From Verrucomicrobiota bacterium (GTDB lineage Bacteria > Verrucomicrobiota > Verrucomicrobiia > CAIQCK01): 35,838 bases of DNA. The notes beneath the pieces were generated by a model. It saw only the letters and a program-made list of their open reading frames with translations, was not told the DNA's origin and did no database searches. Positions 13,753 to 26,856 of the stretch are shown here, one piece after another. The translations under genes were made by a program, and so were the position numbers. Positions within the stretch are counted from its first letter, which is position 1, and every line of letters starts with the position of its first letter. The stretch spans positions 1-35,838 of the forward strand of contig JACRKA010000055.1 in NCBI GenBank assembly GCA_016219905.1. The letters are read 5' to 3'.

Positions 13753-13829
13753 AACCGCGGATTACGCTGATACCGCGGATGAGTCATGAATTCGCCGAAC
13801 CATCCGCGTCATCCGCGATATCCGCGGTT
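13753..13829. repeat. CCGCGGAT-family palindromic repeat (5' side of GxxExxY gene)
   Basis: Left aaccgcggattacgctgataccgcggatga (13753-13782), right ccatccgcgtcatccgcgatatccgcggtt (13800-13829); inverted relation. Confidence 0.85.
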
Positions 13830-16007: not shown

Positions 16008-16171
16008 AGCTCCGTTAGGAGCGTCATGTTTATAGTATGGCATATCCACCAACCCCAAGCTCCGTAGGAGCGGCATGACGGAATCGCAGCCGAGCCATAC
16101 CGTGTCGCTCCTACGGAGCTTCCTCGATATTAGCTGGGTCGTGCTATAACCATGTCGCCCCTGACGGGGCT
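16008..16171. repeat. Cluster of CTCCGTAGGAGC-type palindromic repeats
   Basis: agctccgttaggagcgtcatg (16008-16028); aagctccgtaggagcggcatg (16057-16077); inverted tgtcgctcctacggagctt (16103-16121); variant catgtcgcccctgacggggct (16151-16171). 16057-16072 and 16106-16121 are perfect 16-nt reverse complements. Confidence 0.85.
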
Positions 16172-20666: not shown

Positions 20667-23018
20667 ATGAAAACCGCAGCCATTATCTTCGCCGTCGCCG
20701 CCACCGCCCACGCCGCGCCGCTGCTCTACGACATGGGCACCGAGAAGTCGGAGGTCTGGCCCGGCTTCACGCAGGTCACGCCCAAGAGCGCGGGCTGGCA
20801 GCGCAAGGACGGCCTCACCGCCTCGGCGCGCGCCTACCGCGAGATGGTCGAGGACAAGCGGCGCGGCCGTGAGGAGCAACCGCCAATCTGGACCAACCCG
20901 ATCACCGAGGACGCCGTCATCGGCGAAAGCGAGAACGTGTTCCTCATGGCCGCGCCGCCGGGCGACTACAATCTCTATGTCGTCTGCGGCACGAGCGACT
21001 CGAAGTATCGCGCGCAGTTCTTCGACTTTATCGTGCAGGCCGGCAGGCAGACGCAGCACGTCCAGATCGAAGGCTGCTACCAGTTCCGCACGCTCCGGTT
21101 CCGCGTGTCTGTGCCCCGTAGGCCAGACACTCCTGTCTGGCCAGCAAAGACAGACCCGAAGACCGGGAAGGCCAGACAAGAGTGTCTGGCCTACGAGCCG
21201 CTCGCCATCAAGTTCGCGCCGCGCAGCAAGTGGGTCGTCAATGCCATCATGGCGTGGACCGATGCCGACGCGGCGCGCGTCGAGAAGGAAATCATCACGC
21301 CGTTCGAGGAATGGACCGTCCGCATGCCGCCAGAGCAATGGGCGAAGTGGAAGCAAGACCCGGAGCCGCCGACCGGCCCGATGCCGAAGCTGGACGCTGC
21401 GGACGAGAAGCGCGGCTTCGCCATCTGGTCGCGGCACTACCTAGAGTGCGTCTATCCGCACACCAACCCGCGCGCCGAGGACCTCAACCCCGAACTGCGC
21501 GCGTTCGCGACGCCGGGCGAGTTCGAGCCGGTGAACTTCATCGTCCGCCCGCTGCGCGACCTCGCCAACGCGAAGGTCAGCGTCAGCGCCATCGGACCGA
21601 TAGCGGCGAAGAACGTCGAGGTGCGCCGCGTCCGCTACATGCTGGCGCGACCGAACTACACGGTGCTCCATCGTTGCCGCATCGTGCCCGACGTGCTGGA
21701 GCGGTTCGAGGGCGGCGATCTCAAGGCCGGCGAGAACGCGCGCTTCTGGCTGACAATCCGCGTTCCCGACAACGCCCCGGCGGGCGAGTATCGCGGCAAT
21801 GTCACGTTCACCTGCGCGGGCGGCAAGGCCGTCGTGCCGGTGAAGCTGCGCGTGCTTCCGTTCAAGCTGCGCGACGACCCGGCGAAGATTTTCGGCATCT
21901 ACTACCATCATCCGCTCGACCGCGCTGCCGAGGCGAAGGACGATGTCTCGCGCGAGTATTGGCGGCGCAAAGCCGACCTGGAGCACGCCGACATGGTCAC
22001 CCACGGCACGCGCAACGTTGTGCTCTCGCTCTGGTGCCCGGCCGCTGACAAAGACGGCAAGTTCGACATCAAGTGGGACACGCTCGCCGAGAAAATCGCG
22101 TTGTGGAAAAAGCACGGCTTTGTCGGGCCGATGGTCATGGGCATCAACAGCGGCGGCGTCTATCATAAATATATGAAGGAGTCGCCCGGCTCGCACCTGC
22201 GCGGCGTGAAGGATCCGCCGGAGGAGTTCAGCCGCGAGATGACCGCGATGGTGCGCGCCATCGAGGCGGGGCGGAAGGAGCGCGGTTGGCCGGAGTTCCT
22301 CTACTACCCGGTGGACGAACCAAGCACGAACCCCGACTCGGTGAATTTCATGGTGAAAGTGCTGAAGGCGTGCAAGGCCGCGGGCGTGCGGACCTACGTA
22401 ACGGCCGACCCGACGCACGAGCAGTTCGAGCCGATGCGACCGTTCATTGACGTGTGGAGCACGCAGCCGTTCGCGCCGGACCGCGAGACGGTGCTCGCCG
22501 ACATGAAGGCGCGGAATGTTGAGTATTGGTGCTACCCCAATCACGTCAACGGCGAGAACGACCACACGCCGGTGACCGGCGCGCGGATGACCTACGGCTT
22601 CGGCTTCTGGCGCAGCGGATTCCTGACGCTCAATCCGTGGATTTACCAGGCCAGCGGGGGCGACCCGTGGAACTACCTCGACAGTTCCTCGATGGATTTC
22701 TTCAACCGCAGCGAGCGGGACGGCGCGCCGATTCCCGTGGCGATGTGGGAGGCGTATCGCGAAGGCTACGACGATTACCTCTACATCTACACGTTGGAGC
22801 GACTCATCGCCGAGGCGAAGAAGAGCGCAAAGCCTGTCGCGCAAAATGCCGCGACAGAGGCGGATCAGGAATTGAAATCGGTCTGGGACGCCATCCGCGT
22901 GCAGTTGAAATACAAGCACGACGACCTCTGGTCGCCGGCGGAGTTCGACGTTTACCGCTGGATGGTGGCGCGGCAGATTCTCGCGCTGCAATCGGCGATG
23001 GGCGGGCGCGGCCGTTAG
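20667..23018 (+). CDS. Secreted DUF4091 / GH123-like protein
   Basis: Signal peptide MKTAAIIFAVAATAHA; FLYYPVDEP (Asp-Glu pair), YWCYPNH, GFWRSGFLTLNPWIYQ and AMWEAYREGYDDYLYIYTLERLI fit DUF4091/GH123-like enzymes. Confidence 0.75.
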   Translation: MKTAAIIFAVAATAHAAPLLYDMGTEKSEVWPGFTQVTPKSAGWQRKDGLTASARAYREMVEDKRRGREEQPPIWTNPITEDAVIGESENVFLMAAPPGDYNLYVVCGTSDSKYRAQFFDFIVQAGRQTQHVQIEGCYQFRTLRFRVSVPRRPDTPVWPAKTDPKTGKARQECLAYEPLAIKFAPRSKWVVNAIMAWTDADAARVEKEIITPFEEWTVRMPPEQWAKWKQDPEPPTGPMPKLDAADEKRGFAIWSRHYLECVYPHTNPRAEDLNPELRAFATPGEFEPVNFIVRPLRDLANAKVSVSAIGPIAAKNVEVRRVRYMLARPNYTVLHRCRIVPDVLERFEGGDLKAGENARFWLTIRVPDNAPAGEYRGNVTFTCAGGKAVVPVKLRVLPFKLRDDPAKIFGIYYHHPLDRAAEAKDDVSREYWRRKADLEHADMVTHGTRNVVLSLWCPAADKDGKFDIKWDTLAEKIALWKKHGFVGPMVMGINSGGVYHKYMKESPGSHLRGVKDPPEEFSREMTAMVRAIEAGRKERGWPEFLYYPVDEPSTNPDSVNFMVKVLKACKAAGVRTYVTADPTHEQFEPMRPFIDVWSTQPFAPDRETVLADMKARNVEYWCYPNHVNGENDHTPVTGARMTYGFGFWRSGFLTLNPWIYQASGGDPWNYLDSSSMDFFNRSERDGAPIPVAMWEAYREGYDDYLYIYTLERLIAEAKKSAKPVAQNAATEADQELKSVWDAIRVQLKYKHDDLWSPAEFDVYRWMVARQILALQSAMGGRGR
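21117..21195. repeat. 79-nt palindromic element in-frame inside the DUF4091-like CDS
   Basis: Left arm cgtaggccagacactcctgtctggcc (21117-21142), right arm ggccagacaagagtgtctggcctacg (21170-21195), 25/26 complementary; each arm is itself a hairpin (ggccagaca-N4-tgtctggcc). Confidence 0.92.
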
Positions 23019-24918: not shown

Positions 24919-26856
24919 ATGAAACCCACTGTGATCACCTGCATCGCGTTGTTGACCGTAACATGCGCCGTCGCTGGACTGGCCCAGGCGGCGGAGAACC
25001 CGCGGACCTTCCACGTCAGTGCCGCATCCGGCGATGACAGCAACTCTGGTCTCTCGCCGCGAGCGCCGTGGCGCAGCCTCGACAAGGTCAACGCCGCGGA
25101 ACTCCGGCCCGGCGACAAGGTGCTCTTCAAACGCGGTGACATCTGGCGCGGGCAACTGGTCCCGCAGAGTGGCAAGCTGGGCGTGCCGATCACCTACGCC
25201 GCCTACGGCAAAGGCGACCGGCCGCTGCTGCTCGGCTCGGTCCGTTGCGACAAGCCGGGCGACTGGCGGCACGAAGGCGGCAACATCTGGGCCACCGCAA
25301 AGCCCGTCTTTACGGAACTGGAGACACGCAACGATCTCGCGGCGTTGCGGTGGTCGGTCCATGCCGAGTCCGGCGCGAAGGTCAGGGCGACGACATCCGA
25401 AGTAGGCGCCGACGTAAGGAGGCGGTCCGATCAATCCGCAAATCCAACGCGCCTCCTCACGTCGGCGCCTACACCCATGACGCAAATCGAGTGCGCCGCC
25501 AGCGGCACGGCAGGAAATCACATCCAGGTTTACGCCGGCGGTTTCTCGATCAAGGAAGGCGACTACTATGCCTTCAGCTTCCGCGCCCGATGCACCAAGC
25601 CGTTTGTCCTGCGCAACGTCAGCCTGATGAACCAGTCGCCGCCGTGGAAGAGCTACGGCCGCGGCAGCGCGGTGGAGTTCAACGTCGGCGCGGACTGGAC
25701 CAGATGCGCAGTCCGTTTCAAGGCCACGAAAACGGCCGACGACGGACGGATCACTGTCTATCTCGGCGGCGCGCTGCCCGCCGGCGCGACGTTCTGCTTC
25801 CAGCCCGTCTCGTGGAAACGGCTCCGGTGCAATGAAGCCGACCTGCTGTCGGTGGATGTCGGCAACATCATCTTCGACCACGGCAAGGCCGTCGGCGTGA
25901 AGAAATGGAAAGCCGCCGACCTCAAGCAGCCGGGCGACTACTGGTATGACGGCGCCAACTGGCAGGTGAAGCTCTATTCGGAGAAGAACCCCGCCGAGTC
26001 ACACAAGAGCATCGAGCTGGCGCTGCGCCGGCATATCATCAGCCAAGGTGGCGTGGGCCACGTCGTCTATGAGAACCTCGCCGTGAGCTGTGGCGCGGCG
26101 CACGGTTTCGGCGGCGGCTCGACGCGCGGCATTGTCATCCGCAACTGCGACATCTCATGGATCGGCGGCGGCCACCAGTTCACCCATCCCGGAGGAAGGC
26201 CCGTCCGCTTCGGCAACGGCATCGAGTTCTGGTCGAGCGCGCGCGACTGCCTTGTCGAGGGCTGCCGCCTCTGGGAAATCTACGACGCCGCGCTCACCAA
26301 CCAGGGCAGCGGCACCAACCAGCAGGTCAACATCACCTACCGCGACAACGTCATCTGGAACTCCGAGTATTCGTTCGAGTATTGGAACCGCGGCTCCGCG
26401 TCCGTCACGCGCAACATCCGCTTCGACCACAACACCTGCGTCAACGCCGGCTTCGGCTGGGGCCACGCCCAGCGTCCCGACCGCAACGGCCGCCATCTCA
26501 TGTTCTACCACAACCCGGCGCAGACCTCGGAGTTCCACGTCCGCGACAACATCTTCTGCAACGCCACCGAGAGCGCCCTGCGGATGTGGAACGATTGGAC
26601 CGCCGGCCTGACGATGGACCGCAACTGCTGGTTCCAGCGCGGTGACGTGCTGATGCTGCTCCTGAAGTCGCCGTTCGCGCCCGGCCAGTTCGCGGAGTTC
26701 CAGACGCAAAGCAAACTCGACGCCCACTCCCTCGTCGCCGACCCGAAGTTCATCAACGCCGACAAGCTCGACTTCCGTCTTGCTCCCGACAGCCCCGCGC
26801 GCAAGCTCGCCGCCGGCGGCGGGCCGGTGGGATCACGGAAACGGCTGCGGGAGTAG
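24919..26856 (+). CDS. Secreted right-handed parallel beta-helix protein with embedded CBM-like domain
   Basis: Signal peptide; TFHVSAASGDDSNSGLSPRAPWRSLDKVNA start typical of the family; GIVIRNCDISWIGGG, CLVEGCRLWEIYDAALTNQ, NITYRDNVIWNSEYSFEYW rungs; CBM-like DYYAFSFRARCTKPF segment. Confidence 0.85.
   Translation: MKPTVITCIALLTVTCAVAGLAQAAENPRTFHVSAASGDDSNSGLSPRAPWRSLDKVNAAELRPGDKVLFKRGDIWRGQLVPQSGKLGVPITYAAYGKGDRPLLLGSVRCDKPGDWRHEGGNIWATAKPVFTELETRNDLAALRWSVHAESGAKVRATTSEVGADVRRRSDQSANPTRLLTSAPTPMTQIECAASGTAGNHIQVYAGGFSIKEGDYYAFSFRARCTKPFVLRNVSLMNQSPPWKSYGRGSAVEFNVGADWTRCAVRFKATKTADDGRITVYLGGALPAGATFCFQPVSWKRLRCNEADLLSVDVGNIIFDHGKAVGVKKWKAADLKQPGDYWYDGANWQVKLYSEKNPAESHKSIELALRRHIISQGGVGHVVYENLAVSCGAAHGFGGGSTRGIVIRNCDISWIGGGHQFTHPGGRPVRFGNGIEFWSSARDCLVEGCRLWEIYDAALTNQGSGTNQQVNITYRDNVIWNSEYSFEYWNRGSASVTRNIRFDHNTCVNAGFGWGHAQRPDRNGRHLMFYHNPAQTSEFHVRDNIFCNATESALRMWNDWTAGLTMDRNCWFQRGDVLMLLLKSPFAPGQFAEFQTQSKLDAHSLVADPKFINADKLDFRLAPDSPARKLAAGGGPVGSRKRLRE
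25402..25472. repeat. 71-nt palindromic element in-frame inside the beta-helix CDS
   Basis: Left gtaggcgccgacgtaaggaggcg (25402-25424), right cgcctcctcacgtcggcgcctac (25450-25472), 22/23 complementary. Confidence 0.92.

Follow-up and report, generated by a model that had tools for sequence, protein, structure and literature searches.

The host gene and its palindromic element

The window, by which we mean the whole stretch of DNA analyzed here, covers 35,838 nt (positions 1-35,838, forward strand) of contig JACRKA010000055.1 from an uncultured Verrucomicrobiota bacterium (assembly GCA_016219905.1). A palindromic element lies within the reading frame of a gene for a secreted protein. An earlier note on this DNA had called the host DUF4091-like, which is roughly right, as the sole Pfam match of the protein was the GH123 N-terminal domain, just under the cut-off. 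The features of the locus are as follows.

20667..23018, + strand: host gene for a secreted GH123-like protein of 783 aa, open through the element, with coding-like codon usage on both sides
21105..21195, + strand: segment replacing a 5-codon stretch of the homologues (A/T-x-A-G-K), for a net gain of 75 bp or 25 aa
21118..21142, + strand: putative REP arm 1, with GTAG foot, stem GGCCAGACA/TGTCTGGCC and loop CTCC
21143..21169, no strand: spacer of 27 nt between the arms, with a sequence not common to the copies
21170..21194, - strand: putative REP arm 2, inverted, with GTAG foot, the stem of arm 1 and loop CTCT (read on the - strand)

The arms, 26 nt each (21117-21142 and 21170-21195), are 96% complementary and 27 nt apart, and the element proper, from GTAG to CTAC, occupies 77 bp of the window (21118-21194). 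Taken alone, each arm folds into a 9-10 bp stem with a 4-nt loop, at about -10.6 and -11.4 kcal/mol by DNA folding, in agreement with the earlier description of near-complementary arms that are themselves hairpins. A cloverleaf-like shape had also been proposed. The two-hairpin form is possible as an alternative fold, but it is less stable than the fold preferred by the whole 79-nt strand, a single long, imperfect hairpin formed by pairing of the two arms with each other (-31.4 kcal/mol; folding z-score -9.7). When the window was shuffled 100 times, the chance expectation for the pattern was 0.00. A search of Rfam returned generic hairpin matches, all far below the gathering score.

The insertion is absent from homologues

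The host gene was compared with eight homologues, each from a different species, which together represent four other genera of the class. They share 59-88% identity with the host gene, and two of the eight have a stop codon elsewhere. The insert was absent from all eight. Where the window protein reads RFRVSVP-RRPDTPVWPAKTDPKTGKARQECLAY-EPLAIKF, the homologues read RFR-A/T-x-AGK-EPLAIKF or similar, and the net effect on the protein is about 25 extra aa found in none of them. The peptide PRRPDTPVWPAKTDPKTGKARQECLAY is encoded within the continuous ORF 20667-23018, which has no stop and no frameshift anywhere else. These data support the claim that a palindromic element was inserted in-frame in a secreted gene.

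The net gain of 75 bp does not equal the 77 bp of the element, and the first 13 nt of the replaced segment, GTGTCTGTGCCCC, which lie 5' of the element, match none of the eight homologues. Therefore, this was either not a clean, simple insertion, with a small loss of sequence, or the flank changed later.

Against four of the homologues, dN/dS of the host gene was 0.15-0.27 before the insert and 0.10-0.19 after it, which argues for a gene that has been functional for most of its history; this does not extend to the time since the insertion. An AlphaFold model with a mean pLDDT of 51.5 has strands 140-149 and 179-185 on either side of the insert, suggesting, at this low confidence, a loop between two beta strands.

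A family of GTAG hairpins in the genome

The genome was searched with the arm pattern, allowing up to 3 mismatches, and with the reversed pattern as a control. Forty arms were found at 26 places, the window's included, and the control found none in the whole genome. Together with the shuffles of the window and the folding z-score, this indicates that the pattern is not due to chance. The further copies, along with the lack of any homologue that carries the peptide without the palindrome, are also what the earlier note had expected of a mobile element.

A consensus was built from units gathered from all fetched loci (n = 96). The unit is YC-GTAG-GCCAGACA-CTCY-TGTCTGGCC, with sharp edges at YC-GTAG and at the end of the stem and random sequence outside. 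The arms in the window match it exactly. The GTAG foot is well conserved (G 93/96, T 78/96, A 79/96, G 93/96), and two pairs of the stem covary: pair 2 is C-G in 9 units vs G-C in 79, and pair 3 is G-C in 12 and A-T in 9 vs C-G in 70.

About 16 of the places hold head-to-head dimers with GTAG facing outward, most of them 62-69 bp long. Their spacers run from 13 to 50 nt, mostly 16-19 nt, and resemble one another no more than shuffled sequences do. The arms, in contrast, average 91% identity. Shared arms with unshared spacers are not what simple copying of whole dimers predicts.

Most copies lie between genes. Six of the 26 places, including the window's, show coding-like codon usage in a single open frame on each side; the other places do not. 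The intragenic copies lie in different reading frames, and the peptides they encode (RRPDTPVWP, VGQTLLSG, GQTRVSVLR) recur in unrelated genes. Homologues have no insert at the precise position of the copy on contig C23.

Across 286 sampled genomes of the class, identical copies of the arm were confined to the window's own family, in six genomes including this one. The 21 specified bases of the arm were also seen in Zixiibacteriota, Abditibacteriaceae, Planctomycetaceae and a Desulfocapsa MAG (loci L113-L133), the last possibly mis-binned. A close RAYT (REP-associated tyrosine transposase) was sought for these copies in other phyla and not found, the best having 40-42% identity. Related CAGACA/TGTCTG hairpins occur within about 0.8 kb of some Y1_Tnp genes in those genomes.

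A transposase gene flanked by the same dimers

Seven matches to Y1_Tnp were found in the genome. One of these genes, on contig C272, has a dimer of the window element's family on either side.

C272:14811-14904: flanking dimer
C272:14931-15554: Y1_Tnp/HUH gene
C272:15554-15631: flanking dimer

This gene ends at a TAG stop codon supplied by the downstream GTAG. The protein scores above the Pfam cut-off for Y1_Tnp, reaches 75.1 bits against NF047646 (NCBIfam REP_Tyr_transpos, REP-associated tyrosine transposase), slightly under the curated cut-off of 80, and aligns with the structure of E. coli TnpA-REP (4er8), with the tyrosine of YIxxNPVK matched. The locus is thus a REPtron, a RAYT gene with dimers of its own family on either side. 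Going by position alone, this RAYT is the likely partner of the REP family in the window.

Two further RAYT genes, on contigs C254 and C117 (L061 2689-3310; L065 2151-2869), are flanked by GTAG hairpins of other sequence (GTAGCCGCAGGTGAAACCTGCGG and GTAGTCATCACGCTCCGCGTGATG), and some RAYTs of relatives are likewise flanked by their own, different GTAG hairpins. Therefore, each REP family apparently has its own RAYT, as has been reported in other bacteria (PMC3733652).

Discussion

The element in the window is almost certainly a GTAG-tagged REP dimer in the head-to-head arrangement (BIME/REPIN), that is, non-autonomous mobile DNA of a REP/RAYT system. It has every testable defining feature of a GTAG REP/BIME/REPIN. 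The earlier note had not given this class name.

GTAG REPs were defined by Di Nocera et al. (2013), who recorded them in Verrucomicrobia, found the most intragenic GTAG repeats in Opitutus terrae and reported that dimers or groups, with a coding length of 20-30 aa, make up over half of the intragenic inserts (PMC3733652). The window element resembles these repeats, including those of Opitutus terrae, in its GTAG tail, 6-9 bp stem and short loop, in head-to-head dimers 20-100 bp apart, in covarying stem residues, in repeat-specific REPtrons and in in-frame intragenic dimers coding for 20-30 aa; the comparison covered these described features. Two differences were seen. DNA-repair genes are the hosts stressed in that study, whereas the host here is a secreted GH123-like protein, and spacers are called conserved there as a rule of thumb, whereas those of the head-to-head dimers here are not. 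The REPIN/BIME and TnpA-REP (RAYT) systems of Pseudomonas and E. coli (PMC3116915, PMC8266576) share the inverted REP doublet, arms that are better conserved than the spacer and an associated tyrosine transposase. However, they have hundreds of copies, compared to about 26 places here, several of them in genes, and E. coli REPs have a bulge in the stem where the window family has a perfect stem. Both the GTAG REPs and their landing within genes have thus been described before, and the window element is a clean, fresh example.

The structure, the genome-wide copies, a RAYT flanked by the same dimers, the absence from homologues and the preserved frame were all observed, and from them we infer movement. 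In the mechanism we propose, the C272 RAYT would recognize the single-stranded GTAG hairpin (GTAG-GGCCAGACA; GTAGGCCAGACACTCCTGTCTGGCC), nick near it and move or copy the dimer to new sites, and one copy would have landed in the GH123-like gene. The RAYTs of E. coli and Stenotrophomonas cleave at CT next to GTAG hairpins (PMC8266576); by analogy, the C272 enzyme may do the same. The insert would have survived since, whichever way the arms are read, two of their three frames lack stops, since the net change in length is a multiple of three and since the predicted loop between two beta strands could tolerate about 25 aa. We claim no benefit of the insertion to the protein.

The earlier note had likened the element to Rickettsia palindromic elements (RPEs) in its behavior and not in its sequence, and this comparison was apt. 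Both are palindromic and insert in-frame, here coding for about 25 aa, and RPEs do so in many unrelated proteins. This is a shared habit and not a sign of membership. It is very unlikely that the element is itself of the Rickettsia type, or a MITE from some other transposon family, with no link to RAYT, given its GTAG foot, its hairpin arms and the RAYT gene flanked by the same dimers. The CGTC-class repeats, which include RPE-4 and RPE-6, have no associated transposase genes (PMC3733652), and the CGTC terminal tag of that class is absent from the window element, which has GTAG instead. Another explanation is that the palindrome arose by selection in place, as a functional RNA hairpin or an evolved peptide loop of the host gene. 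The RNA hairpin is very stable and the gene is under purifying selection overall (dN/dS 0.10-0.27), but the insert is missing from 8/8 homologues, copies of the same DNA are found mostly outside genes and, where they fall in unrelated genes, are read in different frames, and the Rfam matches are poor. An origin as a gene-specific feature, disfavored by the other genomic copies, is therefore scarcely credible; the insert may have acquired a function later.

A different question is whether the same element damaged the protein, leaving a recent pseudogene that is open by chance. This concerns the effect of the insertion and overlaps with its explanation as a REP dimer. Arms that match the family consensus exactly make the insertion look recent, and the frame would be kept by luck about one time in three. 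On the other hand, the ORF has no other stop or frameshift, the insert falls between predicted strands in the low-confidence model, and several other copies are in-frame too. We consider a pseudogene unlikely.

The REP dimer leaves the picture of what REPs are unchanged. Its value is as a complete set in a little-studied phylum, with the REP, a likely RAYT, filled and empty sites and an in-frame peptide, in which REP dimers add peptide loops to secreted enzymes. Possible hot-spots in linkers, along with dimer spacers that keep their length and differ in sequence, are relevant to the mechanism by which REP dimers are copied.

A second REP family and possible recurrent landing sites

A second GTAG REP family is more abundant in the genome, with 95 arms (up to 3 mismatches). 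One of its dimers, which the earlier note did not name, also lies in the window.

25402..25472, no strand: dimer of the second GTAG REP family, GTAGGCGCCGACGTRAGGAGGCG, in-frame in ORF 24919-26856, a secreted gene

This insert is absent in homologues and adds a net of about 24 to 25 aa to the ORF. At three insert sites, the net gains were 75, 72 and 72-75 bp, compared to element lengths of 77, 66 and 71 bp. Since the gains do not equal the lengths and the homologues are only 60-90% identical, no target-site consensus emerged.

At the copies on contigs C260 and C366, the same linker in homologues from relatives contains other palindromes or short tandem repeats of the CCAACACTCC type (L044 3932-3999; L058 4072-4135), so that these linkers are possible insertion hot-spots. 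A tentative reading, which we would not yet favor, is that certain protein linkers in this Verrucomicrobiota family serve repeatedly as landing sites, with insertion by unrelated REP families, or the exchange of one such family for another, in different species, and that REP dimers could be an ongoing, frame-filtered source of new linker peptides.

Elsewhere, a single REP arm (L043 4055-4079) sits at the join of two apparently fused sulfatase genes, in the order C-terminus, REP, N-terminus, within one open frame of 1290 codons. The window also contains imperfect inverted repeats of the GTAGGAGCG and CGCGGAT types at 16057-16121, 2478-2549 and 13753-13829, which probably belong to other repeat families.
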